This document shows positions 9,005-62,925 of a stretch of DNA of 64,000 bases, piece after piece. Location of the stretch: assembly GCA_018882895.1 (NCBI GenBank), contig VERF01000006.1, positions 1 through 64,000 of the forward strand, written 5' to 3'. Origin of the DNA: Candidatus Kapaibacterium sp. Lineage in GTDB: Bacteria; Bacteroidota; Ignavibacteria; Kapaibacteriales; Kapaibacteriaceae. The position numbers were made by a program, and so were the translations under genes. Position 1 is the first letter of the stretch; each line of letters begins with the position of its first letter. The notes under the pieces are model-generated. The model ran no database searches, was not told the DNA's origin, and saw only the letters and a list, made by a program, of their open reading frames with translations.

Positions 9005-9035
9005 AATGCCGTCGATCGTCGAGATCGGCGGCATT
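9005..9035. terminator. Strong hairpin (13-bp stem with one T-G wobble), possible terminator
   Basis: AATGCCGTCGATC-GTCGA-GATCGGCGGCATT after the porV-like gene; no clear T-tract. Confidence 0.45.
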
Positions 9036-9067
9036 GTCATTTGAACCCCAACATGCGTTGACTAACC

Positions 9068-10474
9068 ATGAAACGTTTGATTCTCCATCTGCTGTGCATC
9101 GTGACATGTACCAGTTTGGCCCGCGCTCAGCGTTCGATTGACGTAACAGCAGATATTGTTCAGTTCCGAGGCGCTAACGGGACTGTGAAGTGGGAGTTCC
9201 AGTACGCGTTTGCCGACACCGCTCTGCGCTATGTGATTGCCCCTTCGGGATTTGTTGGTGAATTGTACTGTCGTTTGGAGCTATCACGTGACACAGGGCT
9301 TGTTCACGTCGATGAATGGGTGGCCTCTGTGCCGAGTCCTGTCGCTACACCTAGTCATCGCCAGTTCTATTCGGGGGTCCGAGCAGTTAACCTGACATCC
9401 GGCAACTATGCGGTCAAGTTCTCCGCTTGTGATGTGAACGACTCGCTGAGACGCACCGCTTTGTCCTTCAAAAGCGTTGTTCCGGTGCAGGGCCTGCGCC
9501 CGACCCTTTCGGATATCATGTTCGTCATGCCCGGCAAGGGGTCGGAAAAGTTCCTGCGTAATGGAGTGTCTGCTGATCCCAATCCGCGACATGAGGTGAT
9601 CGGCGCAGAGCCGACACTTGCCATCTATGCCGAGATCTATAACGCAAGCCAGGCCAAGCTGGGTGACTTCGATGTTGGCGTTTCGGTGATCGACAATATC
9701 CGAGATGAGCAGTTCGTTACCTATTTGCCTATGAAAGCACTGAGCGACGGACTTGTGGTGCGTGAAGAATTCCCGCTGCTCGGCATTTCATCGGGCGTCT
9801 ATTATGTGCGCCTGCAACTGCTGACGAAAGATCATCAGACCGTTCTCGACACGAAGGAAGACAAGTTCTTTCTGCTCAATCCCGAAGAGCCCCCTGCCGG
9901 CCAGAGGATGCTAACTGAAGATGAGCATTTTCAAGCCTCGGAATGGGCGATCTTAGTCGGAGAAAAGCTCAAGTTGGAGATGGAGCTCTCAGATATCCTC
10001 GCAACCAAGGCCGAGCTGGATGTTCGCAAGTCCTGCACGAATGAACGCGCTCAGCAGCGCTATTTATACCGCTTCTGGAAGGTTCGCGACCCCGAATCCA
10101 GCACAAATGCCAACGAACGACTCGATCAGTTCCGTGCCAACTTTAAGCGTGCACAAACCTTCTACAAGAGTCCGACGTACCCGGATGGATGGCGCACAGA
10201 CCGTGGTGTGATCCTTCTCAAGTTTGGCGTCCCGACGCAGATCGAGCGATTCGATCACAACACGGATGCCAAGCCATACGAGAAGTGGTTCTACCAGGAT
10301 ATTCAGGGTGGGGTAGAGTTCTACTTTGTTGACATGATGATGCAGCAGAACTACAAGCTGGTACACTCAACCATGCTTGGACAGATCAGCCAGCCGAACT
10401 GGTTCAATCTCTTTGCAAGGGCGTTCAGTCCCAATCCGAATCCTGTTAACCCACAGCCGGGTCTGCCCAGGTAA
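9068..10474 (+). CDS. GWxTD domain-containing protein
   Basis: C-terminal GWRTDRGVILLKFGVPTQIE...YEKWFYQDIQGGVEFYFVD matches the GWxTD domain; signal peptide. Confidence 0.85.
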   Translation: MKRLILHLLCIVTCTSLARAQRSIDVTADIVQFRGANGTVKWEFQYAFADTALRYVIAPSGFVGELYCRLELSRDTGLVHVDEWVASVPSPVATPSHRQFYSGVRAVNLTSGNYAVKFSACDVNDSLRRTALSFKSVVPVQGLRPTLSDIMFVMPGKGSEKFLRNGVSADPNPRHEVIGAEPTLAIYAEIYNASQAKLGDFDVGVSVIDNIRDEQFVTYLPMKALSDGLVVREEFPLLGISSGVYYVRLQLLTKDHQTVLDTKEDKFFLLNPEEPPAGQRMLTEDEHFQASEWAILVGEKLKLEMELSDILATKAELDVRKSCTNERAQQRYLYRFWKVRDPESSTNANERLDQFRANFKRAQTFYKSPTYPDGWRTDRGVILLKFGVPTQIERFDHNTDAKPYEKWFYQDIQGGVEFYFVDMMMQQNYKLVHSTMLGQISQPNWFNLFARAFSPNPNPVNPQPGLPR

Positions 10475-11379
10475 TGTCGCTCACGGATCGGCTCACGACG
10501 GGCGTCCTACAGGCAATGGGCGGAATCTGCAGGCGCTTGTCTTGGAAGCAGAGGCATGCGCTTGGTGTTCGTCTTGGACGGATCATGCGTGGCATCTCCC
10601 CCAAGCGGGTCGGGATCACGGCCGGCAATATTGCCATGGCCTATCCGGAGCTGCCGCAAGTGCGGCAGCGAGAGATTCTCAATGAATCCTATGAGAACCT
10701 CGGAATCGTGCTTGCCGAGTTACTTGCCACGCCGTCGGTCAGTAGAGCTGATATCGAAGCCCATTTTGAGATCCGTGGCATTGAGCCAATTGTAGAGCGG
10801 CATCGTGCAGGTCTGCCATCGATACTACTTTCGGCGCATTACGGCAACTGGGAACTTGGTGCAATGGCAGCTGGCATCAGTCTAGGAGCACCGGTAAACA
10901 TCGTTTACCATCCGCAGTCGAATGCCGTTGCCGATAAGATCCTGAACTCGTATCGAACCAAATTCGGCAACGTGCTGATTCCGATGGGGAGCGCCGCCCG
11001 CGCAATGGTGAAGCTTCTCTCCGGCGGCGGAACCATAGGCATCATCGTCGACCAGCATGGCGTACCGGAGAAAGATCCCTGGATTCGCTTCATGGGGCGT
11101 CCAACACCCACCTACGAGGCTCCGGCGGCTCTTGCCCTGCGATTCAATGCGCCGATCTACTTCTCGTGTTGTGACCGCCGCGACGACGGACGCTACATCG
11201 TGGAGTTCTCCGAAGTACCGATGAGTGACCTTGACAACTCCCGACAGGGAGTCATCGAGCTCACTAAACGTCACGTCCGTATGCTCGAAGATGTCATCCG
11301 CCGACGTCCGGGACAGTGGGCATGGCAGCATCGCCGTTGGCGCAGTGATCCGCCCCCTGGCGTCGTGGTGGTCGAATGA
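10474..11379 (+). CDS. Lysophospholipid / lipid A biosynthesis acyltransferase family (LpxL/HtrB-like)
   Basis: LLSAHYGNWELGAMAAG, IGIIVDQHG, GRPTPTYEAPAALALRFNAPI, PGQWAWQHRRWR. Confidence 0.85.
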   Translation: MSLTDRLTTGVLQAMGGICRRLSWKQRHALGVRLGRIMRGISPKRVGITAGNIAMAYPELPQVRQREILNESYENLGIVLAELLATPSVSRADIEAHFEIRGIEPIVERHRAGLPSILLSAHYGNWELGAMAAGISLGAPVNIVYHPQSNAVADKILNSYRTKFGNVLIPMGSAARAMVKLLSGGGTIGIIVDQHGVPEKDPWIRFMGRPTPTYEAPAALALRFNAPIYFSCCDRRDDGRYIVEFSEVPMSDLDNSRQGVIELTKRHVRMLEDVIRRRPGQWAWQHRRWRSDPPPGVVVVE

Positions 11380-12437
11380 CCCCTGCCCAGACCATCTACA
11401 TCGTTCAGACGGCGTTTCTTGGCGACGTGGTGCTTACGCTCCCGCTGTGCGCTGCTCTGCGACGGTCGTACCCCGAAGCACAAATCGTATTCATCACAAC
11501 GCCGATGGCTGCGGATTTTCTCAAGGGGCTCTCGGTTGCCGATGACGTTGTGGCCTTCGATAAGAGGCGCACTCACCGGTCGATCTCATCCGTTCGGGCA
11601 CTGGCAGCCTCACTGCGGTGCACGGGCCCGTCTGTTGCCATCGTCCCGCACAAAAGTTTGCGCACGGCCATCTTTGTGCAGGCGCTGCGCGCCGATGTTC
11701 TGGTAACCTTCAAGGATGCCATGTCACGCTGGTTTGCCACGCATACGGTTGAGTATCCTGCCCACAGGCACGATGTCGATCGCCACATGGCGCTACTTCA
11801 GCCCCTTTTCCCTGCGAGTTCCATGGTGCCCGACTCGCATTCGCTGATGCCCATCGATCTGCGTACGCACGATAAGCAGGAAGCCATCAATGTTTGGAAT
11901 GAGGCTCTGAGCGCACCTAGAATTGTCCTTGCCCCGGCCACCGTATGGCCCACCAAGCAGTGGCCGGTTGAACAAATGCGCGGACTGGCCCAGCGTTGCC
12001 TACACGAGGGCTATCAGGTGGCCGTCATCGGGGACGCATCGGTGCACGGGTGCATGGACGGTATTGCGGGAGTCAATGATCAGATCGGCAAGACAACGCT
12101 GCGTCAGGCAGCTACGATCATTGCTACGGCTGACTGTGTGGTTGCAAACGACAGCGCTCCCGTGCATCTTGCTTCACTGCAGAACGTTCCAGTGGTGGCC
12201 ATCTTTGGTCCGACGGTGCCCGAGTTCGGATTCGGACCCCTTGGCCAACGCTCGCGTGTTGTGCAACGCGGCGATCTCGAGTGCCGGCCCTGCAGTTCCC
12301 ACGGTGGGAGGAGCTGTCCAATCGGTACGCATGAATGTATGACCGGAATCTCGGTCGACGCGGTGTTCTCTGCCCTTCAATCAACTCTTGCTCACGATGT
12401 GAATCGCCATGCCAAGCCCAATGAAACGACCTTCTGA
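11376..12437 (+). CDS. Glycosyltransferase family 9 (lipopolysaccharide heptosyltransferase-like)
   Basis: IVQTAFLGDVVLTLPLCAALRRSYPEAQI; LAPATVWPTKQWPVEQ; VANDSAPVHLASLQNVPVVAIFGPTVPEFGFGP. Confidence 0.85.
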   Translation: MTPAQTIYIVQTAFLGDVVLTLPLCAALRRSYPEAQIVFITTPMAADFLKGLSVADDVVAFDKRRTHRSISSVRALAASLRCTGPSVAIVPHKSLRTAIFVQALRADVLVTFKDAMSRWFATHTVEYPAHRHDVDRHMALLQPLFPASSMVPDSHSLMPIDLRTHDKQEAINVWNEALSAPRIVLAPATVWPTKQWPVEQMRGLAQRCLHEGYQVAVIGDASVHGCMDGIAGVNDQIGKTTLRQAATIIATADCVVANDSAPVHLASLQNVPVVAIFGPTVPEFGFGPLGQRSRVVQRGDLECRPCSSHGGRSCPIGTHECMTGISVDAVFSALQSTLAHDVNRHAKPNETTF

Positions 12438-13341
12438 CCGACGAGGAAAGTCCTCGTCCACCAACTCACGTGCGCAGGCCCCTTCGCGCAAACGGTCTGG
12501 TGCTCCGGCTGCCTCCACCAGTTCGCGTACTCAGGCCCCTTCGCGCAAACGGTCCAGTGCCGAGGCCACACCTGCCAGACAGCGGCAACCCAAGCAGCGC
12601 CGCTTGGATGTTGTTGAGCCGGCCCAGCAGGTGCGCCTGAACAAGGCCATCGCCGATGCCGGCGTGGCCTCGCGCCGGCGCGCCGATGAGCTCATCAGCA
12701 GCGGATGCGTGCGCATCAACGGGGCTATCGTGGTCGACCTCGGCACACGTGTCAACATCGATGACATGGTGACGGTTAACGGTGAGCCGATCTCGCGGAC
12801 AAAGCATCTGACATACATCCTGCTGAACAAGCCAAAGGATGTCATCGCAACGTCGCGCGATGAAAAGGGGCGAGCAACGGTGTTCGACATCGTTCGCCTA
12901 AAGACACGACTTTTTACGGTTGGAAGACTTGACCGTAACACGACCGGTGTGCTGGTGATGACCAATGATGGAGATCTTGCCAACCGGCTCATGCATCCCC
13001 GCTACGGCGTCACGCGCATTTACCGTGCTGCGCTAGATCGCCCCCTACGCTCAGACCACATGCGCCAGATCGCCGCAGGGATTGAGCTGGAAGACGGACC
13101 AACGCAGCCAGTCGATATCATGATCGATCCTGAGGACAGGGCGAGTGTTGTACTAGCGATCCGGGAGGGTCGCAACCGGGAAGTGCGACGCATCTTCGAG
13201 CACTTTGGCTATGAGGTCAAGCGCCTCGATCGCAAGGAATACGCCGGCCTATCGACAAGGGGCCTCAAGCGTGGTGAGTACCGTCACCTTACGCGTGATG
13301 AGGTGGATGAGTTGTACCGAGTGGTGAATCTGCAGCGATGA
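12409..13341 (+). CDS. rRNA pseudouridine synthase, RluB/RsuA family, with Arg/Ser-rich N-terminal extension
   Basis: S4 domain VRLNKAIADAGVASRRRADELISSGCVRING; catalytic VGRLDRNTTGVLVMTNDGDLA; start could also be 12421; overlaps the previous CDS. Confidence 0.85.
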   Translation: MPSPMKRPSDRRGKSSSTNSRAQAPSRKRSGAPAASTSSRTQAPSRKRSSAEATPARQRQPKQRRLDVVEPAQQVRLNKAIADAGVASRRRADELISSGCVRINGAIVVDLGTRVNIDDMVTVNGEPISRTKHLTYILLNKPKDVIATSRDEKGRATVFDIVRLKTRLFTVGRLDRNTTGVLVMTNDGDLANRLMHPRYGVTRIYRAALDRPLRSDHMRQIAAGIELEDGPTQPVDIMIDPEDRASVVLAIREGRNREVRRIFEHFGYEVKRLDRKEYAGLSTRGLKRGEYRHLTRDEVDELYRVVNLQR

Positions 13342-15434
13342 ATCTTCTGAATCCGTTTGCGCTTTTTGGTCTTGCAGCAGCGGGGATCCCTCTGCTGCTT
13401 CATCTGTTGAATTTGCGCAAGCTGCGTATCGTGGAATTCGGCAGCATTCGCTTTCTTCTCGAGCTTCAGCAAAAACAAGTGCGGCGCCTGAAGTTGCAAC
13501 AGATCCTGCTTCTGATCCTGCGCACACTCATCATCGTCTTTGCGGTACTGGCCTTGTCGCGGCCCACCATCGAGACAACGCTCCCTGTGCTGTCCTCGGC
13601 GGCTCGCGCCAGCGTCCTGATACTGATCGACAACTCCGCGAGCATGGAAGCGGCCGATGGGCGCGGACCTCGCATTGATCAGGCCAAGAAGGTTGCTCGC
13701 GAGATCATCAATGGCCTGCGTGATGGAGACGAAGTGGTCGTTCTGCCCATGGTAGGGGGCGATGTGCAACGTCGGGTGGATATGACACGTACCTTCGATG
13801 CGGCACGGCGGCAGGTTGATCTCGTGACCGTTGCCGACGGGACGGCCAGCATCGTCGAATCGGTGCGTCGGGTTCGCCCCCTCCTCGATGGGGCACTGCA
13901 TGCACACCGTGAGATCTACGTCATCAGTGACGCCCAAAGATCCCTCGCGTATCGTCAGGCAGATGATACGCTGCGTGCCTTGGAACGTGATGCGACGGTA
14001 TTCCTGGTTCGGATTGGCCAGGGGCAGCTCGGACTCGAGACGAACATCAGTGTTGACTCAGTGGCCACCGTCACCAAGCTTCTGCAACCCGACAGACCGA
14101 TCGAATTCGAAGCGATCGTCCGCAACGGTAGCTCCCGCGACGTCACCGGAGCGGTCGTGTCACTTTCTTTCAACGGTATGCGCGTGGCACAGAAGGCCAT
14201 CGACCTGCCGGCCAACGGCAGCAGAACGATCTTGCTTTCGGCCACGCCGAACAGGCAGGGGGCTATCGCTGCCGCCGTTGAGCTGGAGTCGGATGCTGTG
14301 GACGGCGATAACGTCCGCTGGGCAGGGGTTACCATCCCACGTCGGGCGCGTCTGTGCCTGGTTGGCCCGTCGGAGCGCACACAGCTCGTTCGCACGGTCC
14401 TGGCCCTGCCCGGTGTCGGCTCAGCGGTCGGCGCGATCTCGAGTTTTGAGACCATTACCGCTGCGTCTTCGGCCATGACGGACATCGACGTCTTGATCTT
14501 CTGCGGCACGACTGCCTCCAACGCCGATGCCTCTGTGCTTCGCCAGTTTCTCGAATCAGGTGGCGGGGCAATTCTGTTTGCCTCTGCTTCTGCCGGGACG
14601 CTTTTGCCGCAATGCGGTCTTCAGCCATTGCCGGAAAGAACGACAACAGCAGACGCGCCGTTTGTGATCACCGCCGTCGAAAGAACGCATCCACTCTATC
14701 AGGGTGTCTTCAGAAGTTCGGCCGCCCTGCTGGCCGGTTCCGAGGGAGTGCGCGTGACGCGCCAAACACCTGCCGGCGGTGGATTCGATATCGTGCGCTC
14801 CGGTGCAGGAGGCTTGGTGAGCGAGGCGACGGTTGGTCAGGGGCGAGTGATCTACATTGCCGTACCACCCGACATGTCCTCCGGGACGTTTCCAGTCAGT
14901 GGTCTGTTTGCGGCCACGCTCGTTCGAAGCACACTCTATGTGGTCGCACCGCGTGATCAAGGCGTCAACCTTGGACTCGGGGAATCTGTCAGTATTCCGA
15001 TCCCGCCACGCCTTGCAGGCCGTGACGCGTTCATCGTGGCGGATCAGAACGGCGTGAGTTCGACCATTCAGCCAATACGTATGAGCACGGCAACGCTGCT
15101 TCCGATTCCTGCACAGTTCACCTCGGGAGTCACGGTGGTCTCGACGCGTGACTCTGTTCCGGTTACCACGGTGACCGTGAATGGATCGACCAATGAGTCC
15201 CGACTCGACTTCTTTGAGGAAGGGGCTTGGAAACCTGCCGTTGATACGCTCGTCGTGCGTCCGGATCACGTAACGGAGCTCTCTGCCGGCACATCGGTCC
15301 AGGCCGCCATCCGCGAGGCGCGAACAGGTTCGGAGCTATGGCCATTGGCTACCATGCTTGCCCTTGCCTGCGCCCTGGCGGAGATGCTGGTGGCCCGTTA
15401 CTTCGTGCGTGATGCGGCGGTGACGGCATCGTAA
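13338..15434 (+). CDS. BatA/aerotolerance-type N-terminal membrane domain plus VWA domain protein
   Basis: MNLLNPFALFGLAAAGIPLLLHLLNLRK...FGSIRFLLELQ and VLILIDNSASMEA (MIDAS). Confidence 0.85.
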   Translation: MNLLNPFALFGLAAAGIPLLLHLLNLRKLRIVEFGSIRFLLELQQKQVRRLKLQQILLLILRTLIIVFAVLALSRPTIETTLPVLSSAARASVLILIDNSASMEAADGRGPRIDQAKKVAREIINGLRDGDEVVVLPMVGGDVQRRVDMTRTFDAARRQVDLVTVADGTASIVESVRRVRPLLDGALHAHREIYVISDAQRSLAYRQADDTLRALERDATVFLVRIGQGQLGLETNISVDSVATVTKLLQPDRPIEFEAIVRNGSSRDVTGAVVSLSFNGMRVAQKAIDLPANGSRTILLSATPNRQGAIAAAVELESDAVDGDNVRWAGVTIPRRARLCLVGPSERTQLVRTVLALPGVGSAVGAISSFETITAASSAMTDIDVLIFCGTTASNADASVLRQFLESGGGAILFASASAGTLLPQCGLQPLPERTTTADAPFVITAVERTHPLYQGVFRSSAALLAGSEGVRVTRQTPAGGGFDIVRSGAGGLVSEATVGQGRVIYIAVPPDMSSGTFPVSGLFAATLVRSTLYVVAPRDQGVNLGLGESVSIPIPPRLAGRDAFIVADQNGVSSTIQPIRMSTATLLPIPAQFTSGVTVVSTRDSVPVTTVTVNGSTNESRLDFFEEGAWKPAVDTLVVRPDHVTELSAGTSVQAAIREARTGSELWPLATMLALACALAEMLVARYFVRDAAVTAS

Positions 15435-15436
15435 GT

Positions 15437-16357
15437 TTGCCGCATATGGCCTCTATCACCGTCCACCCCGAGATCGCCCCCTTGCAAGAGCGCGTGCGTG
15501 AACTTCGCACTCAGCTGCGTGAGGCGCTCGATGATTGGCATCAGCTCTCAACGGTGGTCAGGCCAAGGATTCATGCCACATACGCAAGTCATTTTGGAAC
15601 GCTGGAGCGCGAATTGCAGGAGGTGGCTCTTGCAGCGGCCGAGATGTTCCGTCGAGTCGAACTACTGAGCATAAAGCATGAGCGGGGAGAAAAGCTCACC
15701 GCTGAGATCGTCGACCTCATCAACCAGGTCGTTGATAAGGAGTATGCACGCTTCACCATGCGCGTTCAGGAAGCATTTCGCATGAATGAACGGCAAAGGG
15801 AGGATGCGGCGCGTAAACGAGAGTCGGAGGGTTCTGACACCGAGCTCGTGTCGATGTACCGCACCCTCGTTAAACAGCTTCACCCCGATGTGGCTGATGC
15901 TGCAAGCGATGCATCCGCTGACGATGGTATATGGCATCAGGTACAACAGGCTTATGCGACGCGCAACGCTGCTCAGCTTCGGTCGCTTGTGATGCTGCTC
16001 GGTGCTGATGCCGCTCTTGACCGTGAGTCCGATGAGTGGGGGATCGACCGTTGGCAAGACGAGGTCGCCTCCCTAGAAAAGCGCCTCGCGTTGGAGCAAC
16101 GCAAGCTCAGGCGCCTGAGTTCGGAAGAACCATTCACGATGGCAGCCGAGCTGGAAGATGAGATCTGGAGGCAGCGGCATCGTGATGACTTGGTGCGTCA
16201 GATCGCACAGAAGCACAATGAGCTTCGTGAATCGCGACGGAGATATGATGATCTTACAGGGGGCTTGGTGCCTCCGGGCCATAACCCGATGAAGTCCAAG
16301 CAGGACGTATCCTTTGAGGAGGACTTCATGACCAACACCTACTTTGGACAGCGCTGA
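15437..16357 (+). CDS. Coiled-coil protein with internal J-domain-like segment
   Basis: MYRTLVKQLHPDVADAA...WHQVQQAYATRNAAQL: HPD tripeptide (15881-15889) in a J-domain-like context; start may be 15446. Confidence 0.65.
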   Translation: MPHMASITVHPEIAPLQERVRELRTQLREALDDWHQLSTVVRPRIHATYASHFGTLERELQEVALAAAEMFRRVELLSIKHERGEKLTAEIVDLINQVVDKEYARFTMRVQEAFRMNERQREDAARKRESEGSDTELVSMYRTLVKQLHPDVADAASDASADDGIWHQVQQAYATRNAAQLRSLVMLLGADAALDRESDEWGIDRWQDEVASLEKRLALEQRKLRRLSSEEPFTMAAELEDEIWRQRHRDDLVRQIAQKHNELRESRRRYDDLTGGLVPPGHNPMKSKQDVSFEEDFMTNTYFGQR

Positions 16358-18198
16358 TGTATGTAATCGAACAACGGGACGAGCAACTCGTCAACTCAAA
16401 GGCCGGCATCACCTACGAACTTGGCTTCGACCGAGCTCCTCAGCACCTTGTCAGCGTGCGAATGCGTGTTGACAACGTCGCCGCTCCAGAGCTTGCATTC
16501 GTGATGCCCTCGTGGTCGCCCGGCAGTTATAAGATTCGTGACTATGCTGGCTGGCAGGGCAACGTTCGGTGCTATTCGGTGAACGCAGCAGGGCGCACGG
16601 AACTATCCTATCGCTGGCGTGACAAGGCCTCGCTGGTGGTCTCGACTCAAGGTGTCGCCACTGTTGAAGTTGAGTATCTGATCTATGCTCATGAACGGAC
16701 GGTGCGCACCAGTCACGTCAACCGCTTTCATGCCTTTCTCATGCTCACCTCGGTCTGCATGTACGTCGAGGGGCGCACCCAAGAAACACATCACGTTCTG
16801 CTGAAGCATGATCAGTTGAAGTGGCCGTCGACTTCGACAGCGTTGTCGCCGGTCAGCGCGCCAACTTCGCGTGGAATTCTCCTCGGCGCGCTGAACTATG
16901 ACATTCTGGCCGACTCGCCGATCGAGATCGGCGACCACCGCGTCCGGACCTTTACTGCTGCCGGTGCACTCCATGAGGTGGCGGTGGCAACCAACTACGA
17001 CGTGGACATTGATTGGCTCGCTGACCGCGTCAAGCGCATCGTCGAAGTCGAGACCGAGCTCTTCGGAGGTGCGCCATATGATCGTTACGTGTTCATCATT
17101 CAGGCCTATCCCGGGGCAGGGGGCGGGCTGGAGCATGCACGATCCAGCGTCAACGCCGTGGATCCGTCAGCGCTGCTCGACAAGACAAAGGCCATTGGTC
17201 TGTTGTCTCTGCTTTGTCACGAGTACTTCCACCTTTGGAACGTCAAGCGTATCCGCCCGGTTGAGCTCGGCCCCTTCGATTACACTCGAGAGACCTACAC
17301 GCCGATGCTCTGGCTTGCCGAGGGGTTGACGTCCTACTATGATAATCTCTTTGCGTACCGATGCGGCTTCGCGACCGAGAAGGAGTATGTCGACTCAATC
17401 TCGCGTGACGATATCGCTCGGCTGGCGCAGGTTCAAGGGCGATTTGCAATGTCGACACGCGACAGTTCGTATCTGGCCTGGCTTAAGCTCTATTTGCAAA
17501 GTCCTGACGGTTCCAACCGATTCCCTTCATACTACCTGAAGGGCGGCATCATCATCATGCTCCTGGATATCTACATCATCGATCATACTGATGGCAAGTA
17601 CTCGATGGATGATGCTCTTCGCATGATGTGGAAGCGATATCAGGATGACCCATCTCGGGGAATGACCGAGGATGAGTGCATCGCCATCATCGAGCAGGCC
17701 ACTCGAGTTCAAGTCCGTGAGCGTCTGATGAGCTGGCTTGACGGAAAGGACGAGCTTCCTTACGATGAGATCTTGAAGGCTGTCGGCTATCGGGTGAGCG
17801 CAGCACCGAAAAAGGCAGCTGCCGGAACCTTCGGTGAAGCGGTCCCAAGCGCATCTGTCCCCGAAGCGCCCTTTATCGGATGGAGTCTGGCCGATGTCGG
17901 CGGCAAGGTTGTTGTGCGCGCGGTTGATGATGGCTCACCGGCTCAGCTGGCCGGGATTGGAATTGACGATGAGCTTGTGGCTATCGAGGGCATCCGCATC
18001 CTGAATCCGGCACAGGCTGATCACGTATTGGGTGGACGCGTGGGCAAAGCGGTGCAGTTGACGGGGCATTGCGATGGTCGGATATACACCACCACCATTG
18101 AGGCTCGTGAGCGCATGATGCCGGGTCTTGTTGAAATAGACGCCCCGTCTGAGCGTCAGCGTCAAATGCGCAGCCGCTGGCTGCAACGACGTCTGTGA
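16357..18198 (+). CDS. M61 family metallopeptidase with PDZ domain
   Basis: HEYFHLWNVKRIRP zinc motif; LAEGLTSYYDN; C-terminal PDZ-like segment. Confidence 0.88.
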   Translation: MYVIEQRDEQLVNSKAGITYELGFDRAPQHLVSVRMRVDNVAAPELAFVMPSWSPGSYKIRDYAGWQGNVRCYSVNAAGRTELSYRWRDKASLVVSTQGVATVEVEYLIYAHERTVRTSHVNRFHAFLMLTSVCMYVEGRTQETHHVLLKHDQLKWPSTSTALSPVSAPTSRGILLGALNYDILADSPIEIGDHRVRTFTAAGALHEVAVATNYDVDIDWLADRVKRIVEVETELFGGAPYDRYVFIIQAYPGAGGGLEHARSSVNAVDPSALLDKTKAIGLLSLLCHEYFHLWNVKRIRPVELGPFDYTRETYTPMLWLAEGLTSYYDNLFAYRCGFATEKEYVDSISRDDIARLAQVQGRFAMSTRDSSYLAWLKLYLQSPDGSNRFPSYYLKGGIIIMLLDIYIIDHTDGKYSMDDALRMMWKRYQDDPSRGMTEDECIAIIEQATRVQVRERLMSWLDGKDELPYDEILKAVGYRVSAAPKKAAAGTFGEAVPSASVPEAPFIGWSLADVGGKVVVRAVDDGSPAQLAGIGIDDELVAIEGIRILNPAQADHVLGGRVGKAVQLTGHCDGRIYTTTIEARERMMPGLVEIDAPSERQRQMRSRWLQRRL

Positions 18199-20297
18199 CG
18201 CCCCCTCGCATCATATCACTCCTCTTGGTAGCCAGCACCATCGCCGGCCTCTCCGGCTGTGCGTGGTACGACAATCGTATCACGTACTTCAATACGTACT
18301 ACAACATGCAGCGTATCCGCGGCGAGATCCTGGACGAGTTTGATTATCAGGAAGAACTCAAGCGGAACCGTCCACGTGTGCTGATTCCGGGACTGGACAG
18401 TATCAAGCTTACGTCGGGCCCGCCCAAGAATTCGATCTACCAGTTTCTGAGAGGGCTGCAGATCGATCGCACTAAGCTGCAGCCGGTTGCGACAAAGGTC
18501 GACTCGATCCTGATGAAGGGTTCGAAGGTCGTGGCCTTCCATCCGAAGTCGGACTATATCGAGGGTTCGTTGTTTCTGATGGCCGAGGCCTACTTCTTCC
18601 GTTCCGAATGGGTCCCGTCCCAACAGAAGTGCCTCGAACTGATCGAGCGCTTTCCCGATGGCGAGTTCTCTCCTGATGCACACATCCTGCTTGCAAAGGT
18701 CTATCTGATGCAACGCAAGGTCTCGCAGGGTACGCAGGCACTTTCCAAGGCCGTTGACGTTGCTTGGTATCGCGACCGATATGATGTCGCCAGCGAGGCA
18801 TATCGCATTCAGGCTGAAATGGCCATCGAGGACGGAGATATCGAGAAGGCGATCATGCCCTACAAGCAAGCACTCATCATGTGTGAAGATGGAGTGCAGC
18901 GTGCGAAGTGGCAGATCGAGATTGCTTCGATCTATTACCGGATTGGCAAATACGAACTCGCCGAAGCCGCATTCCGAAAGGTGTTTGACGAGAACCCCGA
19001 TGCCCTCGGACAGTTTGAGTCGCTGCTTTACATTGCCTCTTGTCGTGCTCGGCAGGGACAGTTCGACGAGGCCAGCGAGCTGTACGCGAAGCTTGAAGAC
19101 CGCAAGGCTTTCTCCGAGTGGGCATCGTTCATCCAAGCAGAACGCCTTGCCCTAGATCGGCTCCGTCAAGAAAACGCCAAGGACAAGACGCTTCTTGCCC
19201 GCGAGAGGTTTGCCGACACGTCATTTGTCGGCAAGCCGGAGCTAATGGCACAGTCCTTCCAGAAGGGTATGGCCCTGTACAAGACCGGCGAGTATCAGGA
19301 GGCGCTGAAGTACTTCGCAAAGGCCAAGATCATCCGAACGCCAGTCTATGATGTCGCCAACAAGTACTACACTGCCTTGCGCTCGTGGGATGAAGCCAAA
19401 CGCAGACTCTACCTGCTGGACCAGCACCTGGTTGTGGATACCTCGCGCAGGGACTCGATCAATCGTCTCCGCTCGGGCGAGCTCTATTCCATTGGCCGTG
19501 TTCACGAGACCCTCGACAAGGCTGACAGTGCGCGGATATACTATCGTCGGGCCTTCGAGGCCAGTGATCCCGCGTCCGAGGATGCGGGAAAGTGCTTGTT
19601 TGCACAGGCGCGACTGTTGAAGGATTCCGATCCGATCGTGTCCGATTCTCTCTTCGAGGTTATCTCTTTGCGGTGGCCGCGGAGCCCCTTTGCAAAGGAG
19701 GCCGCTGCCAATCTTGGATACACTGCCGATGCGACCATCGATGATGCAGCCGAGTTGTATGCCTCAGGATCGAAGTTCCGCATGATCAAGGACTACTCCT
19801 TCGCTTCGCGGCAGTTCATGACGGTGGTCAACAAGTTCCCTCAAAGTGACATTGCGCCGAAAGCTCTGTATGCGATGGGGTGGATGTTTGAGCGTGATGT
19901 GCAGAGAAACGACAGCGCGCTGTTCTACTATCAGCAGCTGATTGAACGGTATCCTCGTTCGGAGTATGCTCGCGAGATCAGGGCAAGCGTCGAATTTGCG
20001 CTTGCCAAGATGAACGGAGTTGAAGTTTCGGATTCAACGCTCTTGCGCGATCTGGACAAAGAGTTGCTGCAACGTGCGACTGATAAGGACAAGGATGTGA
20101 TGCAGCAACTGATGGATAACAACAGGGACGCTTTTCAGGTTACGGCACCGGGCGTAAATGTGCCGCAGATACCTGGCATGACTCCGGGCGGCTCTCTCAA
20201 CAACATTCTACAGGGTCAGATCCGCGACGCCCAGGGGAATATCATGGGTAACAAGCAGGACAGTACCAATGTGCCGCCACCTCTGCCGAAACCTTAG
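18195..20297 (+). CDS. TPR lipoprotein, PorW/SprE-like (T9SS-associated)
   Basis: Lipobox LSGCAW; NRITYFNTYYNMQRI; many TPR-like repeats. Confidence 0.65.
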   Translation: MTPPRIISLLLVASTIAGLSGCAWYDNRITYFNTYYNMQRIRGEILDEFDYQEELKRNRPRVLIPGLDSIKLTSGPPKNSIYQFLRGLQIDRTKLQPVATKVDSILMKGSKVVAFHPKSDYIEGSLFLMAEAYFFRSEWVPSQQKCLELIERFPDGEFSPDAHILLAKVYLMQRKVSQGTQALSKAVDVAWYRDRYDVASEAYRIQAEMAIEDGDIEKAIMPYKQALIMCEDGVQRAKWQIEIASIYYRIGKYELAEAAFRKVFDENPDALGQFESLLYIASCRARQGQFDEASELYAKLEDRKAFSEWASFIQAERLALDRLRQENAKDKTLLARERFADTSFVGKPELMAQSFQKGMALYKTGEYQEALKYFAKAKIIRTPVYDVANKYYTALRSWDEAKRRLYLLDQHLVVDTSRRDSINRLRSGELYSIGRVHETLDKADSARIYYRRAFEASDPASEDAGKCLFAQARLLKDSDPIVSDSLFEVISLRWPRSPFAKEAAANLGYTADATIDDAAELYASGSKFRMIKDYSFASRQFMTVVNKFPQSDIAPKALYAMGWMFERDVQRNDSALFYYQQLIERYPRSEYAREIRASVEFALAKMNGVEVSDSTLLRDLDKELLQRATDKDKDVMQQLMDNNRDAFQVTAPGVNVPQIPGMTPGGSLNNILQGQIRDAQGNIMGNKQDSTNVPPPLPKP

Positions 20298-55998: not shown

Positions 55999-56616
55999 AT
56001 GGCACACGACCTCCAGATAAATGCCGAGTTCGTGAAAGGGGCTACCTCTTCGGAGCATTTCCCCGTGACCTCGTTGTGCGAGGTTGCCATGGTCGGCCGC
56101 TCAAATGTTGGTAAATCGTCGCTCATCAATGCGATCGTGCGACATGGTCGGATGGCTCGGGTGTCGAACACGCCGGGTAAGACCCAAGAGATAAACTTCT
56201 TTGTGACCGATGCCGGCTTCATGCTGGTCGATCTTCCGGGCTATGGCTATGCCCGTGTGAGCAAGACGCAACGAGAACAGTTCTCGCGGCTTATCCGTGA
56301 TTATGTGACGCGACGTGAGAACCTCGCGCTGACGTGTGTGCTTGTTGATGCCAGACATGATCCGCAGCCGCTTGATCTGGCAATGCTCGAAGAACTGGAG
56401 CTTGCAAAACGCGCCTACGTTGTTGTTCTGACAAAGTGCGATAAGCTCAAGCCCGGGGCCGTAGCAGCCCGACAGGAGCAGCTCCGGCAGGTGCTGTCAC
56501 AATGTCGATACCTGGTGGACGTGATACCTACCTCCAGTCAGACCGCTCTGGGCCGTCATGAACTGATCGGCTGCATGAAACGAATAGTGAATGAACATGT
56601 GAAGGGATCGTCATGA
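55999..56616 (+). CDS. engB: Ribosome biogenesis GTP-binding protein YihA/YsxC
   Basis: [53 protein letters not shown]. Confidence 0.95.
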
Positions 56617-57116
56617 GCACCCAACCCTTGGTCGGAATCATAATGGGTAGTGACACTGACTACCCAACGATGCGCGAAGCCGCTCAGGTCTGCGAAGAGT
56701 TCGGCATTGCAGCAGAAGTCCGCGTCGTAAGCGCTCACCGAACGCCTGCAGACATGGCCGAGTACGCATCCACCGCACACGAGCGTGGACTGAAGGTCCT
56801 GATCGCCGGAGCCGGAGGAGCTGCTCATCTGCCGGGTATGGTCGCATCCTACTCGCCCCTTCCCGTGATCGGTGTGCCGATAGCTACCAAGCAGCTCCGA
56901 GGTCTTGATTCGCTGCTCAGCATTGTCCAAATGCCGGCAGGTGTGCCCGTGGCCACGGTAGCGATCGGTGGTGGCCGCAATGCCGGCATACTTGCCATGG
57001 AGATCCTCTCAGTGGCCATGCCTGAGCTTCAGCAGAGATTGATCGAGTTCAAGGGGGCGATGGCCGAGGCCTCGCGCGCGAAGAACACCTCGCTGGGTGC
57101 TTCGGTGATCATTTGA
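56613..57116 (+). CDS. purE: 5-(carboxyamino)imidazole ribonucleotide mutase
   Basis: [26 protein letters not shown]...[40 protein letters not shown]. Confidence 0.95.
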
Positions 57117-57133
57117 TGACGAAGCATTTACTG

Positions 57134-57164
57134 TTGAATAATCGGCCGCACGTGCCGATGTTTG
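57134..57164 (+). promoter_or_regulatory. Candidate arginine-operon promoter, TTG-N20-GATGTTTG
   Basis: TTG 57134-57136; GATGTTTG 57157-57164 (one mismatch to TAnnTTTG), about 30 nt before the leader ORF. Confidence 0.35.
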
Positions 57165-57194
57165 CTCCCCCTCGATCAGAACAAACTTTCTGAG

Positions 57195-57281
57195 ATGAAA
57201 CTGCGACGCATCCGATATGACCGACGACGACTGCCGCTGCGAGAATTCCGGCAGGTCGCACGCGTGTGCATTCGGATCTGA
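57195..57281 (+). CDS. Candidate arginine-rich leader peptide MKLRRIRYDRRRLPLREFRQVARVCIRI
   Basis: 28 codons, 10 Arg (CGA/CGC/CGG), ATG to TGA, directly upstream of the arginine operon; absent from the ORF track because of size. Confidence 0.6.
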   Translation: MKLRRIRYDRRRLPLREFRQVARVCIRI

Positions 57282-57317
57282 CCCCTCTCGCAGCCAAACT
57301 ATCTCGAGGTGCCGCCA

Positions 57318-57370
57318 TCATCCGTTGAGCTACTCCGGATGACGTCGCCAATCGCCCCCTGTCAGGGCGA
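57318..57370 (+). promoter_or_regulatory. Two consecutive hairpins in the putative arginine leader
   Basis: TCATCCG (57318-57324)/CGGATGA (57336-57342); TCGCCC (57352-57357)/GGGCGA (57365-57370). Confidence 0.5.
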
Positions 57371-57403
57371 ACATGTTTCAGAACTATCATCACTACAACG
57401 TCC

Positions 57404-57985
57404 ATGAACGATCCGCTCGTTGACGTTGGCGTGGAAGTGTTCCATGCCAATGAGTCACACACCCTGTACGCAGAAGAGATCTGCGAGACGATATTCGTTG
57501 CCGCACAGCAACGGGGAACCGGCATTGCCCGGCGCACACCGGAATACATCATCGGGAAGATGATGGAAGGCAAGGCCATCATTGCGCTGACGCAGGATGG
57601 ACGCCTCGCCGGATTCTGCTACGTTGAGACATGGGAACACGGCAGGTATGTGGCCAACTCGGGACTGATCGTCAAGCCCGAGTTTCGGAAACAAAACCTG
57701 GCGCGTCGAATCAAGAAGGCCGCCTTCGACCTGTCGAGAGAGCGCTACCCGAGCGCGAAACTCTTCGGCATCACAACAAGCGCCGCCGTGATGAAGATCA
57801 ATTCGGAACTCGGATATCGCCCCGTGCATTTCTCTGAGCTCACCAGCGACGAGGCCTTCTGGAGCGGATGCCAGTCGTGTCCGAACTACGACATACTTCA
57901 GCGAACAAATCGTGCCATGTGTCTTTGCACGGGTATGCTTGCCGACTCCGCATCGCAGACCAATTCATCGTCGGAGGATGCATGA
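57404..57985 (+). CDS. GNAT N-acyltransferase, candidate N-acetyl/N-succinylglutamate synthase of the operon
   Basis: LIVKPEFRKQNLARRIKKAAFDLSRERYPSAKLFGITTSAAVMKINSELGYRPV (GNAT fold); first gene of the arg cluster, overlaps argG. Confidence 0.75.
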   Translation: MNDPLVDVGVEVFHANESHTLYAEEICETIFVAAQQRGTGIARRTPEYIIGKMMEGKAIIALTQDGRLAGFCYVETWEHGRYVANSGLIVKPEFRKQNLARRIKKAAFDLSRERYPSAKLFGITTSAAVMKINSELGYRPVHFSELTSDEAFWSGCQSCPNYDILQRTNRAMCLCTGMLADSASQTNSSSEDA

Positions 57986-59184
57986 ACAAGGTGCTGCTTG
58001 CCTTCAGTGGCGGACTAGATACGTCATACTGTGCCCGCTATCTGGCCGTTGATCAAGCCATGGAGGTCCACTCGGTGGTCGTCGACACCGGCGGCTTCAC
58101 CACCGATGAACTGGCGCACATCGCTGAACGCGCACGCGCCTGCGGTGTGGCATCACATTCGACACTCGATAGAACGCAAGTACTCTTCGACACAGTGCTG
58201 CGCCATTGCATCGCAGGGAACATTCTAAAGAATGCTAGCTATCCGCTGAGCGTCAGCGCCGAACGCGTCGTGCAGGCCATCGCCATCGCCGAACATGCAC
58301 GCTCAATCGGTGCAACTCATCTTGCCCATGGCTCTACCGGAGCCGGCAACGATCAGATCCGGTTCGATACGATCTTCCGGATCATGACGCCACAGCTGCC
58401 CGTGCTGACGCCGATACGCGACAATCGACTATCTCGGCAGGACGAGATCGAGTACTTGCTCAAACACGGCGTGGAGGGTGACTGGACAAAGGCGAAGTAT
58501 TCGATCAATCAGGGGATCTGGGGAACAACCATCGGTGGACGCGAAACGCTGACGTCGCATGAGCCCCTTCCCGAAGCAGCATGGCCATCGAACATTCATG
58601 CAAAGCACCCTGCCGATGCCTCGCAGGTTGTGCAACTGCATTTTGATAAGGGGCTTCCCACACGCCTCGATGGGGAGGCACTCGACCCCGTAGCGCTGCT
58701 GCGTCGGCTGAACGACATCGGCTCGCAGTGGCACATTGGCCGTGATATGCACGTGGGTGATACGATCCTTGGCATCAAGGGGCGCGTGGCCTTTGAAGCG
58801 CCGGCAGCATTGATGACCATCAAGGCGCATCACGCTCTTGAGAAGCACACGCTTACCAAGTGGCAACTGAATCTTAAGGACCAGCTCTCGCTCTGGTATG
58901 GGCAGCTTCTGCACGAGGGACAATTCCTCGAACCCGCCATGCGAAGCATCGAAGCTTTCTTCGATCAAACGCAGCAACACGTCAACGGTGAGGTGACGCT
59001 TCGCCTGCGCGAAGGGGGCTTCTTCGTCGAGGGCATCACTTCGGCGCATGACCTTATGAGGTCGTCCTTTGCCACCTACGGCGAGGAGAACCTGGCCTGG
59101 AGTGGCGACGACGTCAAGGGCTTCGCAACCATCGGCGCGATCGCCACCTCGATCTGGTCGAGCGTCAACGGAGACCCAACATGA
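57982..59184 (+). CDS. argG: Argininosuccinate synthase
   Basis: MNKVLLAFSGGLDTSYCARYL; THLAHGSTGAGNDQIRFD; YSINQGIWGTTIGGRE. Confidence 0.93.
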   Translation: MNKVLLAFSGGLDTSYCARYLAVDQAMEVHSVVVDTGGFTTDELAHIAERARACGVASHSTLDRTQVLFDTVLRHCIAGNILKNASYPLSVSAERVVQAIAIAEHARSIGATHLAHGSTGAGNDQIRFDTIFRIMTPQLPVLTPIRDNRLSRQDEIEYLLKHGVEGDWTKAKYSINQGIWGTTIGGRETLTSHEPLPEAAWPSNIHAKHPADASQVVQLHFDKGLPTRLDGEALDPVALLRRLNDIGSQWHIGRDMHVGDTILGIKGRVAFEAPAALMTIKAHHALEKHTLTKWQLNLKDQLSLWYGQLLHEGQFLEPAMRSIEAFFDQTQQHVNGEVTLRLREGGFFVEGITSAHDLMRSSFATYGEENLAWSGDDVKGFATIGAIATSIWSSVNGDPT

Positions 59185-60131
59185 TCCGCGCCGCCGTCAT
59201 TGGCGCCGCCGGCTACACGGGCGGCGAGCTCATACGTCTGCTGCTGCGGCATCCAAACGTCGGACAAGCAGGCCTGACGGCCGTTAGCACCTCGTCGGCC
59301 GGACGACGCATCGGAGAAGTTCATCCGGATCTGAGCGGCAGCACTGACCTGCGCTGCACGGATCATCATGGTGAGCCTGACGTTGTCTTTCTTTGCCTCG
59401 GCCACGGTCAGAGCTCACGATGGCTTGCCGAAAACACACTTGCGGCACACGTGCGCGTTGTCGACCTCAGCACGGACCATCGTGATCTGACAGCTAATCC
59501 GGGGTGGACCTATGGTCTGCCCGAGAAGTACCGTCAGGCGATACGTGGCTCATCGCGTGTTGCCAATCCCGGTTGCTTTGCCACAGCCATTGAACTGGCC
59601 CTTCTGCCGCTGGCCGAAACCGGTCTTTTAACCGGTGACGTTGTGGTGCACGCCATCACAGGATCGACAGGTGCGGGCGCGCAACCGTCGGAGACAACCC
59701 ACTATGCGTGGCGTGAATCCAACGTCAGTACCTACAAGACGTTTGCCCACCAGCATGAGGCCGAGATCCGCCAGGTGCTGGGGGATGTGCGACTGCACTT
59801 CGTGCCGCTGCGTGGACCCTTCACACGGGGCATTCATGCCACATCGGTCATCCCCGGGATGCACGATCTGCAACAGGCCATATCCGCCATCACCACGCGC
59901 TATGCCGAGGAGCCCTACGTGCACGTGGTATCGAACGAACCGGCAATGAAGGCCGTCGTCAACACCAACAACTGCCACATCGGCCTCACGGGTTCGAATG
60001 GTACGCTCTGCATCGTCAGCTGCATCGACAACCTCCTGAAAGGGGCTAGTGGTCAGGCCGTGCAGAATATGAATCTGATGTTCGGTTTTGATGAGACGGC
60101 CGGACTCAACCTCAAAGCATCGGTGTATTAG
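59181..60131 (+). CDS. argC: N-acetyl-gamma-glutamyl-phosphate reductase
   Basis: IRAAVIGAAGYTGGELIRLLLRHPNV; VANPGCFATAIELALLPL; HQHEAEI. Confidence 0.93.
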   Translation: MIRAAVIGAAGYTGGELIRLLLRHPNVGQAGLTAVSTSSAGRRIGEVHPDLSGSTDLRCTDHHGEPDVVFLCLGHGQSSRWLAENTLAAHVRVVDLSTDHRDLTANPGWTYGLPEKYRQAIRGSSRVANPGCFATAIELALLPLAETGLLTGDVVVHAITGSTGAGAQPSETTHYAWRESNVSTYKTFAHQHEAEIRQVLGDVRLHFVPLRGPFTRGIHATSVIPGMHDLQQAISAITTRYAEEPYVHVVSNEPAMKAVVNTNNCHIGLTGSNGTLCIVSCIDNLLKGASGQAVQNMNLMFGFDETAGLNLKASVY

Positions 60132-60143: not shown

Positions 60144-61103
60144 ATGAAGCGTTTCACCTCGGTACAGGATATCATTGGCGGACCCGGTCTTATGGCGGCG
60201 ATGAAGCGAGCACTCGACTATGCGGCCGATCCGTGGATGCATGAGGGACTTGGACGTCGGCGCACGGTGGGTCTGCTCTTCATGAACCCTTCGCTGCGTA
60301 CGCGTATGAGCACGCAGAAGGCTGCCTCGCTGCTGGGTGCGGAGACGATCGTGCTGAATGCCGGCAGTGACTCGTGGACGCTCGAGACGCGCGATGGGGT
60401 GGTGATGGACGGTTCGACAACTGAGCACATCAAGGAAGCGGCCGCCGTGATGGGCGCGTACTGCGACGTGCTTGGCCTGCGCACGTTTGCCGGCCTAACG
60501 GACCGCGCTCATGATTACCAAGAAACGGTACTCGAAAAGTTTATCACCTATGCCGGCGTGCCGGTCATCAGCCTCGAGAGTGCCACACGTCACCCCCTGC
60601 AAAGCTTTGCCGATCTCATCACCATCGAGCAGCATAAGACACGTCAGCGTCCAAAGGTGGTGCTGACCTGGGCACCCCATCCCAAGGCCCTGCCACAGGC
60701 AGTGGCCAACTCATTCGTTGAATGGATGCGTCATGCAGACGTAGAGCTGGTGGTGACGCATCCGGAAGGTTATGAGCTTGATCCGTCATTCGTCGGCGAT
60801 GCCACGGTCATGTACGATCGTGATGCTGCCTTTGAAGGCGCCGACTTCATCTACGCCAAGAACTGGTCGGCCGTTGAGCCTTATGGGGCTATCCTGTCGC
60901 AGGACAAGCACTGGACCGTTACGCCGGAAGCGATGTCGCATACCAGCAATGCCAAGTTCATGCACTGCCTACCGGTGCGACGTAACATGATCGTTGACGA
61001 TGCGGTGATCGATGCGCCAACGTCCATCGTGATCCCACAAGCCGCCAACAGGGTTGTCTCTGCCCAGACGGTTCTGTCCTTTATGCTTGAAGGACTCGGC
61101 TGA
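60144..61103 (+). CDS. N-acetyl/N-succinylornithine carbamoyltransferase family (ArgF')
   Basis: NPSLRTRMSTQKAA; ESATRHPLQSFADLITIEQHK; KVVLTWAPHPKALPQAVANSF; FMHCLPVRRNMIV. Confidence 0.92.
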   Translation: MKRFTSVQDIIGGPGLMAAMKRALDYAADPWMHEGLGRRRTVGLLFMNPSLRTRMSTQKAASLLGAETIVLNAGSDSWTLETRDGVVMDGSTTEHIKEAAAVMGAYCDVLGLRTFAGLTDRAHDYQETVLEKFITYAGVPVISLESATRHPLQSFADLITIEQHKTRQRPKVVLTWAPHPKALPQAVANSFVEWMRHADVELVVTHPEGYELDPSFVGDATVMYDRDAAFEGADFIYAKNWSAVEPYGAILSQDKHWTVTPEAMSHTSNAKFMHCLPVRRNMIVDDAVIDAPTSIVIPQAANRVVSAQTVLSFMLEGLG

Positions 61104-61873
61104 TGAAAGTGATCAAGATCGGTGGGGCCGTGCTCGACGAACCGTACCTGCGCAAGCAGATGCTTGATGCGGTCCCGCGTCTGGCAGAGCCCTGCATTCT
61201 TGTTCACGGTGGGGGAGTGATCGCTACGAAGCTCGCTCGCGAGTTGAACGTTCCACAGACCATGGTCGACGGACGTCGTGTCACCGATGCGGCCACGCTG
61301 GAGATCGTGGTGATGGCCTACGCCGGCAGCGTCAACAAGTCCCTTGTGGCTGAACTCTACGCGCTGGGACGTCCCGCAATTGGCATCACCGGCGCCGATG
61401 CAGACGTTGTGCGCGCGCATCGGCGGGAGCATCCGACGCTGGACTTCGGCTTTGTGGGTGACATTGATCACATCAACACCAAGCAGCTTCGCTCATTCCT
61501 GGATCAAGGCATGAGTGTTGTCGTAGCGCCCATTACGCACGACGGCGGCGGACAGCTGCTGAATACCAATGCCGACACCATGGCGGCAGAGATCGCCATC
61601 GCTCTTGTGAAGTCCGCCGATGCTGATGCAGAGCGCGTGTCGCTCCACTTCGTCTTTGAGCACCGAGGTGTACTGGCATCGGTTGATGATCCCGATTCGG
61701 TCTTCGAATGTATCGAGTCGGCAGACGTACCTTCACTCGTTAGCCAGGGAGTGATAACAAAGGGTATGATGCCCAAGATCTCCAACGCCGTACGAGCCGC
61801 AGAGGCCGGGGTAGAGGTTGTGATCCAGCACGTAGGTGATTGCGGCACAACGGGTGGGACGCGCATCGTATGA
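61103..61873 (+). CDS. argB: Acetylglutamate kinase family
   Basis: VIKIGGAVLDE; CILVHGGGVIATKLARELNVPQTMVDGRRVTDAATLEIVVM; LLNTNADTMAAEIA. Confidence 0.93.
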   Translation: MKVIKIGGAVLDEPYLRKQMLDAVPRLAEPCILVHGGGVIATKLARELNVPQTMVDGRRVTDAATLEIVVMAYAGSVNKSLVAELYALGRPAIGITGADADVVRAHRREHPTLDFGFVGDIDHINTKQLRSFLDQGMSVVVAPITHDGGGQLLNTNADTMAAEIAIALVKSADADAERVSLHFVFEHRGVLASVDDPDSVFECIESADVPSLVSQGVITKGMMPKISNAVRAAEAGVEVVIQHVGDCGTTGGTRIV

Positions 61874-62925
61874 TCGAGCTACTGCAACGACTCATTGCTA
61901 CGCGGTCATTCTCCAGAGAGGAGAATGTGACGGCGGATATTCTCGAGGACCATTTACGCGGCTGTGGTCGCCCCGTTCAGCGTTTCGGCAACAACGTGCT
62001 GTCGTTGCCGGAACCGGATGGACGTCCGATATGGCTGCTGAACTCTCATCACGATACGGTGCGTCCGGGCGGTGGCTGGAGTCATGATCCGCTCGTCCCA
62101 ACGATCGTTGACGGACGTCTCTACGGTCTGGGCTCCAACGATGCCGGTGGGGCGCTTGTGATGATGCTCGCTGCGTATCTGCACATGTCGGAGAAGTCCG
62201 ATACTCCGGTGCAGTTTGCCTTTGCCGCTACTGCCGAGGAAGAGGTAAGTGGCGATGGCGGCATGGCGCTGCTTGCGCGCGAGGTCTTCGACAAGTATCC
62301 TCTTGCCTGCGCTCTTGTGGGCGAGCCCACACAGATGCAGATGGCGGTGGCCGAGAGGGGGCTGATGGTGCTTGACTGCACATGGCACGGCCGGACGGGA
62401 CACGCAGCCCGCAAGGAGGGCATCAACGCCATCTATGCGGCGCTGGCCGACATCGAATGGTTCCGCACGTTTGAGTTTACCGATATCACCGGTGACCTCG
62501 GTGAGGTGTCGATGACCGTCACGCAGATCAATGCCGGTACGCAGCACAACGTCGTCCCCGACGTCTGCACGGCCGTTGTTGATGTGCGCGTGCCCGGCTC
62601 GCATACGCACGAGGATGTGCTGGCGGTTATCCGCGCGCACGTGAGCTGCGACTGTCAGCCCCGTTCCATGAGGTTGCGTTCCTCATCCATCGCGATGGAT
62701 CATCCTCTTGTTCAGTCGGGCCTCGCGCTCGGCATGAAGGCCTATGCCAGCCCCACAATGTCTGACCAGGCTCTGCTGCCATCGGGCGTTCCGTCGCTCA
62801 AGATCGGTCCGGGCAACAGTGCGCGCTCGCACACGCCTGACGAGTGGATCGGCATCGACGAGGTGGAGTCGGGCATTGCCACATTCATTCATCTGCTCGA
62901 AACAACCATGCGGAGTCTGCAATGA
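61870..62925 (+). CDS. M20 family deacylase (ArgE-like)
   Basis: LLNSHHDTVRPGGGWSHDPL; LYGLGSNDAGGALVMM; TAEEEVSGDGGM; VGEPTQMQMAVAERG. Confidence 0.85.
   Translation: MIELLQRLIATRSFSREENVTADILEDHLRGCGRPVQRFGNNVLSLPEPDGRPIWLLNSHHDTVRPGGGWSHDPLVPTIVDGRLYGLGSNDAGGALVMMLAAYLHMSEKSDTPVQFAFAATAEEEVSGDGGMALLAREVFDKYPLACALVGEPTQMQMAVAERGLMVLDCTWHGRTGHAARKEGINAIYAALADIEWFRTFEFTDITGDLGEVSMTVTQINAGTQHNVVPDVCTAVVDVRVPGSHTHEDVLAVIRAHVSCDCQPRSMRLRSSSIAMDHPLVQSGLALGMKAYASPTMSDQALLPSGVPSLKIGPGNSARSHTPDEWIGIDEVESGIATFIHLLETTMRSLQ

Follow-up and report, generated by a model that had tools for sequence, protein, structure and literature searches.

Arginine Operon and Upstream ORF

The window, that is, the whole analyzed stretch of 64,000 nucleotides from Candidatus Kapaibacterium sp., carries an arginine operon of the order GNAT-argGCF'BEH on its forward strand. 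The first gene encodes a GNAT acetyltransferase (57404–57985, ATG at 57404) that matched Pfam PF13508/PF00583 above the cut-off. It was followed by argG (57982–59184, TIGR00032), argC (59181–60131, TIGR01850), argF' for N-acetylornithine carbamoyltransferase (60144–61103, NF003384), and argB (61103–61873, TIGR00761), all above the respective cut-offs. Further downstream on the same strand were an ArgE/DapE-like deacylase gene (61840–62925, start codon unsettled), for which TIGR01910 was the best match below its cut-off, and an argH-like frame, judged by eye from its translation, which runs off the window. GNAT adjoins argG across Bacteroidota. The best NCBIfam matches of the GNAT protein were far below their cut-offs and no named NCBIfam type fits it; it is plausibly an N-acetylglutamate synthase of a type unnamed in NCBIfam.

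Directly upstream of the operon, downstream of purE (56613–57116), an ORF of 28 codons was found on the forward strand, from the ATG at 57195 to the TGA at 57281 (57195–57281). It encodes the peptide MKLRRIRYDRRRLPLREFRQVARVCIRI with 10 Arg, including a CGA-CGA-CGA triplet at 57222–57230. An earlier note on this DNA had regarded this ORF as the leader peptide of an arginine attenuator, and all its coordinates for the ORF, the Arg codons and the triplet were correct on recheck. The promoter-like TTG-N20-GATGTTTG that it placed at 57134–57164 was also there on the forward strand (TTG at 57134, GATGTTTG at 57157–57164). The box would mark a predicted start and resembles the Bacteroidota -33/-7 type. 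In ten genes around the locus, CGA accounted for 22 of the 176 Arg codons. The densest 8-codon Arg cluster of the ORF (5 Arg) was equalled or exceeded in 3% of the dinucleotide shuffles of the window locus alone, and the whole leader folded no better than shuffles (z -0.32). Since a single-locus p of about 0.03 is only marginal and would also suit a chance ORF in GC-rich spacer DNA, the lone sequence could not carry the claim, and the comparison with relatives decides.

The 7-bp hairpin TCATCCG/CGGATGA (57318–57342) and the 6-bp hairpin TCGCCC/GGGCGA (57352–57370) on the forward strand, the latter without a U-tract after it, are present as the earlier note described, but neither is conserved in the nearest relatives. 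The segments at 57210, 57272, 57318 and 57336, from which 1:2, 2:3 and 3:4 pairings had been drawn, are not conserved either, and 57318–57342 is unsupported as 3:4. The ATCCGA/TCGGAT scheme was rejected, as its CGGAT/ATCCG partners change without compensation in L002–L004. The caveat in the same note that a U-tract is lacking was right for the window's family: no intrinsic terminator with a U-tract was found before the first gene in the window, and none was conserved in its family. In positions 1–20000 of the window, terminator matches were no more numerous than in shuffles, a simple scan of this type being weak evidence. This genome may have few U-tract terminators.

Conservation of the Leader in the Window's Family

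Of 61 related genomes, 40 had the GNAT gene, which was also located at 64 loci of a species collection. The leader was present in one copy in 14 of the 25 genomes of the window's family; these 14 sequences are mutually related, and counts among them are not independent events. A small ORF with clustered Arg codons is therefore conserved upstream of the operon in relatives, as the attenuator reading had called for. The 14 genomes share the peptide core [D/A]RRRL(P/T/V)LRE, with the variants DRRRMLLRE (L011) and VRRLPLRE (L016). The core is encoded by CGACGACGACTnnnGCTGCGRGAA, and YYCGCAGC(GAAGCC) follows after the stop. At the regulatory codons, 13 of the 14 have CGACGACGA and L016 has CGTCCGACGA. 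An in-frame start codon stands 9–12 codons 5' of the Arg triplet in all 14 (ATG in 11, GTG in 2, and TTG in 1), and the stop lies 16–23 codons 3' of it. The remaining two frames mostly lack such a start codon. Furthermore, a TTTGC box occurs 41–61 nt 5' of the triplet in 11 of the 14 genomes, which would put the ORF very close to the transcript's 5' end.

The leader copies always sit before GNAT, and argG is next in almost all loci with the flank covered (in L020 it had no match). As a rule, purE lies upstream, and the leader is kept where purE was undetected upstream (L010, L015) or lies further off (L011, L013). This conservation in 14 genomes, with frame and start phase, and the attachment to the operon make a chance ORF hardly credible. 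The same holds for the conserved hairpin, which beats shuffles in all 14 genomes, and for the Arg enrichment in other clades, which is far above that of other amino acids (both described below).

The leader was missing in 11 of the 25 family genomes, 3 of which belong to the same genus as the window. In six of the family genomes (L134 of G011, G001, G003, G014, G021 and G023), the leader is gone and purE nearly abuts or runs into GNAT, which suggests that fusion of the operon to purE may bring a loss of Arg control. GNAT and argG are mostly not neighbours in family f7, and there no Arg leader was found before GNAT or argG.

RNA Folds over the Leader ORF

RNAalifold returned a single conserved hairpin, P1, in which GCTGCGRGA within the ORF pairs with YCYCGCAGC past the stop. 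In the window, its 5' strand is GCTGCGAGA (57236–57244, forward strand, inside the ORF) and its 3' strand is TCTCGCAGC (57286–57294, forward strand), with a C-rich ACCCC just 5' of the latter. For the eight counted pairs, standard pairs were found in 14 of 14 genomes. Seven of the eight lower pairs are invariant and thus give little information. A compensatory change was observed, A-U in the window and three relatives and G-C in ten. The upper P1 stem is predicted to join segment 2, CGGCAGGTC (57249–57257), with GATCTGACC (57275–57283), both on the forward strand, the latter containing the leader stop codon (57279–57281). Here 84% of the cells were paired, with both-sided change at 3 pairs. 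P1 had 93.3% of its cells paired vs 34–53% with the partner slid, and in each of the 14 genomes it was stronger than shuffled partners (p of about 0.05 or lower). The covariation looked for in the leader stems of relatives was thus found as compensatory changes in P1, and not in the stems of the earlier note.

The covariance model of P1 had exactly one strong match in each of the 14 genomes. The rest of the genome and 299 genomes of the class had no convincing copy, only weak matches with E values of 0.005–0.01. A search downstream of P1 for another partner of its 3' strand found nothing consistent. In seven loci (L007, L008, L009, L010, L013, L015 and L016), representing one subset of genera, a second structured element, GAAGCCC(C/A)CTCGA...TCGACCGCGACTTC, was seen 3' of P1, its inner stem being variable and apparently covarying.

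A local hairpin over the Arg codons, H12, was predicted at 57225–57258 on the forward strand (57225–57228:57255–57258 plus 57231–57236:57249–57254). It would take the role of segments 1:2, and segment 2 could pair either with the H12 5' arm or with 57275–57283. H12 was predicted in 14 of 14 relatives at -12 to -27 kcal/mol, for example as CGAC..TGCCG/CGGCAG GTCG in the window and GACTC/GAGTC in L008. H12 and P1 are both strong in all 14 and exclude each other, because they share bases. The predicted folds hence contain what marks an attenuator, namely mutually exclusive hairpins, one of them over the regulatory codons.

The nucleotide conservation is strong and extends to third codon positions (almost only CGA), with GCTGCG/CGCAGC invariant. 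This would also fit an operator or a structured RNA with a protein or small-molecule ligand, the ORF being incidental and CGACGACGA and the stem being conserved for that other reason. Such an element is quite improbable, as a start codon in a single frame stands at a fixed distance in 14 of 14, the unrelated RNAs of other clades have only Arg codons in common, and no Rfam family matched. The conserved non-Arg residues of the window's family (L-x-L-R-E) might in turn point to nascent-chain stalling, with free arginine halting the ribosome on the Arg peptide, as with the fungal arginine attenuator peptide. L-x-L-R-E is encoded by the P1 5' strand, however, so its conservation is explained by RNA pairing, and the peptides of other clades are unrelated except for Arg; stalling of this kind is very improbable.

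Probable Complete Attenuators in Genus g9 and Marinifilum

The sister genus g9 belongs to family f3 of the same order as the window and was represented by five genomes (loci L022 and L137–L140). Arg leaders stand before the same operon there, such as those beginning MTSLLRRRSLRRRPCQQWHG, MFCGNCRRRTLRRPCLLWHGKARVLS and MTSLLRRRSLRRRPCQQWHGTAAVLS. Hairpin 1:2 is CCCTGCC/GGCAcrGG, with the Arg codons immediately before segment 1, and just before GNAT lies a strong terminator, GCCGCTTCC...GGAAGCGGC, with a T-rich run behind it. Segment 2 (GTGGCACRGG) is complementary to the 5' arm and loop of the terminator, and the 2:3 duplex was calculated at -16 to -22 kcal/mol. Between species, the pairing of segment 2 with the terminator changes from CAG/CTG to CGG/CCG. 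The complementarity of leader and terminator was reached in only 0–3 of 500 shuffles. Judged from sequence, g9 has the geometry of a textbook Arg attenuator, with an Arg leader, 1:2, 2:3, 3:4 and a U-tract.

In Marinifilum, the Arg leader ESRRHLRS is accompanied by the terminator AAGCTTACCG-ttcctg-CGGTAGGCTT-U7 and by an antiterminator formed by AGGGACGGATGAGCTT; this attenuator is an independent-looking version. In this group (L045; also L043, L046, L050, L051 and L094), two Arg ORFs were seen in the region of about 400 nt upstream of GNAT, the first with the U7 terminator and the antiterminator, the second containing RRR and stopping about 10 nt short of GNAT. In family f3, L018 and L019 have a possible leader pair, MDTISRIIARRRVVRYSEIIISNIIITSYY and MNAQYVLIVVLRSRPCAECIVSTIINSSYY, each ending at its stop, 41–131 nt upstream of GNAT; the two have the ending SYY before the stop and AGCTATTATTAA in common.

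The Arg leader-peptide attenuator proposed in the earlier note is thus supported by the conserved ORF and Arg codons, the compensated stem and the complete versions in close relatives, but the segments named there are not supported.

Arg Leaders and ArgR in Other Bacteroidota

Short ORFs ending in an Arg cluster were found before the operon in Cytophagales, Sphingobacteria-like, Chitinophagaceae and Flavobacteriaceae loci. The remark that an Arg leader would be unusual in this lineage understated the case, as such leaders stand before the operon in much of Bacteroidota. The peptides are unrelated and have little in common but Arg, for example MVKINLPISPFRRMRSARTQA, MKYEVKFISYSYLPTPIFRCTFFRRV, ...FTFSPRPRRRPVC and ...VRRFFTRRP, each running to its stop codon.

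The enrichment of all 20 amino acids in short upstream ORFs was tested with about one locus per genus. In 21 ArgR-lacking Bacteroidota loci, Arg stood out upstream with a combined p of 7e-11, the next amino acid being proline (0.013). In nine ArgR-bearing loci, Arg did not stand out (0.085). An Arg leader was present in 14 of the 21 ArgR-lacking vs 2 of the 9 ArgR-bearing loci (Fisher p 0.046, which ignores phylogeny, so that the association of the leader with the absence of ArgR is suggestive only). ArgR (PF01316) was missing from the genome of the window and 40 relatives, 41 genomes of the window's order, with positive results for the controls. It was also missing from 37 of 46 other genomes, positive controls included, and present in nine, which were Bacteroidales of the Rikenellaceae/Odoribacteraceae type and one Calditrichaceae.

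The Calditrichaceae locus (L048) has ArgR and an Arg-containing short ORF, MAFKNLHNYYHHNPFIRPMPRPVFRRII up to the stop, before the operon, and possibly both systems, ArgR and an Arg leader, are found together there. In the Flavobacteriaceae loci L044 and L047, two tandem Arg-rich short ORFs were observed 350 nt upstream of GNAT, ending before their stops in ...GRRRRS/...VRIPPRRP and ...PTRRRRR/...VRRFFTRRP. Moreover, a hairpin with apical CUAYGUGG/CUAUGUGA and a covarying stem follows the leader stop in L058, L054, L068, L074 and L070–L084, recurring among otherwise different leaders (Spirosoma-like, Arcicella-like).

Proposed Mechanism of Control

At the sequence level, the comparison supports the ORF, its frame, the Arg codons, the compensated P1, the exclusive hairpins and the linkage to the operon. 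The leader is most probably an Arg-sensing, ribosome-mediated leader-peptide attenuator of the GNAT-arg operon, and it probably does the job of the ArgR repressor, which is missing in these bacteria.

As regards the promoter, ribosome pausing, the direction in which control acts and the output, we infer the following scheme. Starting at the transcript's 5' end, a ribosome would translate the short ORF of the leader. Under a shortage of charged tRNA-Arg, it would pause at CGA-CGA-CGA (57222–57230), and its leading edge, about 12–14 nt ahead, would cover the H12 5' arm (57225–57236), so that H12 could not form. P1 would then form (57236–57244:57286–57294 plus 57249–57257:57275–57283) and hide the C-rich strand past the stop. 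When Arg is plentiful, the ribosome would reach the stop (57279–57281) and cover the P1 3' strand, with H12 folding behind it. The C-rich strand and the following leader would be exposed, and transcription would be cut short.

Of the possible outputs, Rho-dependent termination within the untranslated leader of about 120 nt, gated by P1, seems the most likely. The strand hidden by P1 is ACCCCTCTCGCAGC in the window and CCGCCCCCGCAGCGAAGCCCCC in other genera, and gating of Rho is proposed because this strand is C-rich and no U-tract follows. Rho as the output in the window's family is put forward tentatively, with somewhat more doubt than confidence.

The lack of a U-tract in the window's family would also suit translational control, in which a ribosome stalled at Arg refolds the leader and frees the GNAT start codon without premature termination; an Arg-sensing leader acting on translation initiation is known from S. 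aureus (PMC13009471). Translational control is unlikely: with P1 masked, the GNAT start region of the window is predicted to be unpaired, and the spacing between P1 and GNAT differs widely among relatives, from about 85 to 200 nt. In addition, g9 and Marinifilum employ terminators.

Extending the attenuation reading to the phylum, ArgR-less Bacteroidota may control Arg biosynthesis by Arg-coded leader attenuators whose sequences differ by clade, possibly with several origins. Some would have intrinsic terminators and some, such as that of the window, would gate Rho without a terminator. The reasons for and against this broader view are about evenly balanced.

Comparison with Known Systems

Operons for arg genes are treated in textbooks as controlled by ArgR and are the standard example of control by a repressor only.

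Like the trp, his and leu attenuators, the present leaders have a short ORF with codons for the end product and exclusive hairpins, and g9 has the full 1:2, 2:3 and 3:4 with a U-tract. Unlike them, the leader of the window senses Arg and would control an arg operon, and its family has no U-tract terminator. Arg T-boxes of Firmicutes are also RNA leaders that sense Arg-tRNA charging for arg genes, but a T-box lacks a leader ORF and binds the tRNA itself. The T-box covariance model gave no match at E up to 1, nor at the gathering threshold in 17 loci, and no relevant Rfam family matched the leader of the window or the 17 loci.

In the speF leader of Salmonella, orf34 contains consecutive Arg codons, a ribosome that pauses when Arg is low brings about an alternative fold, and Rho-dependent termination is involved (PMC6386406). 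It resembles the present leader in the consecutive Arg codons of an upstream ORF and in the alternative fold, and is a precedent for Rho and Arg codons together; no sequence likeness is claimed, and its target is ornithine decarboxylase of polyamine synthesis, not Arg biosynthesis (PMC6386406). In the rbfL leader of S. aureus, rare Arg codons in an upstream ORF likewise sense Arg limitation, but there stalling leads to repression by blocking the ribosome binding site downstream, and the target gene is unrelated (PMC13009471). Within the same phylum, leader-peptide attenuators have been proposed upstream of amino-acid operons in Flavobacterium psychrophilum; the main text of that study names pheA and hisG among the conserved 5' elements and no Arg leader (PMC9723704). 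A survey of Actinobacteria reported no RNA element at arginine operons there. In the open-access literature searched, Arg-codon leaders were found only for speF and rbfL, and no element of the present kind was found; the priority of an Arg attenuator for an arg operon is not certain.

The attenuator offers a case in which the sensing half is conserved and the output half differs between sister families. It also yields concrete predictions for a large phylum, along with several candidate RNA families that Rfam lacks. In a lineage without ArgR, leader-peptide attenuation appears to have replaced the repressor, in several RNA forms at one operon.
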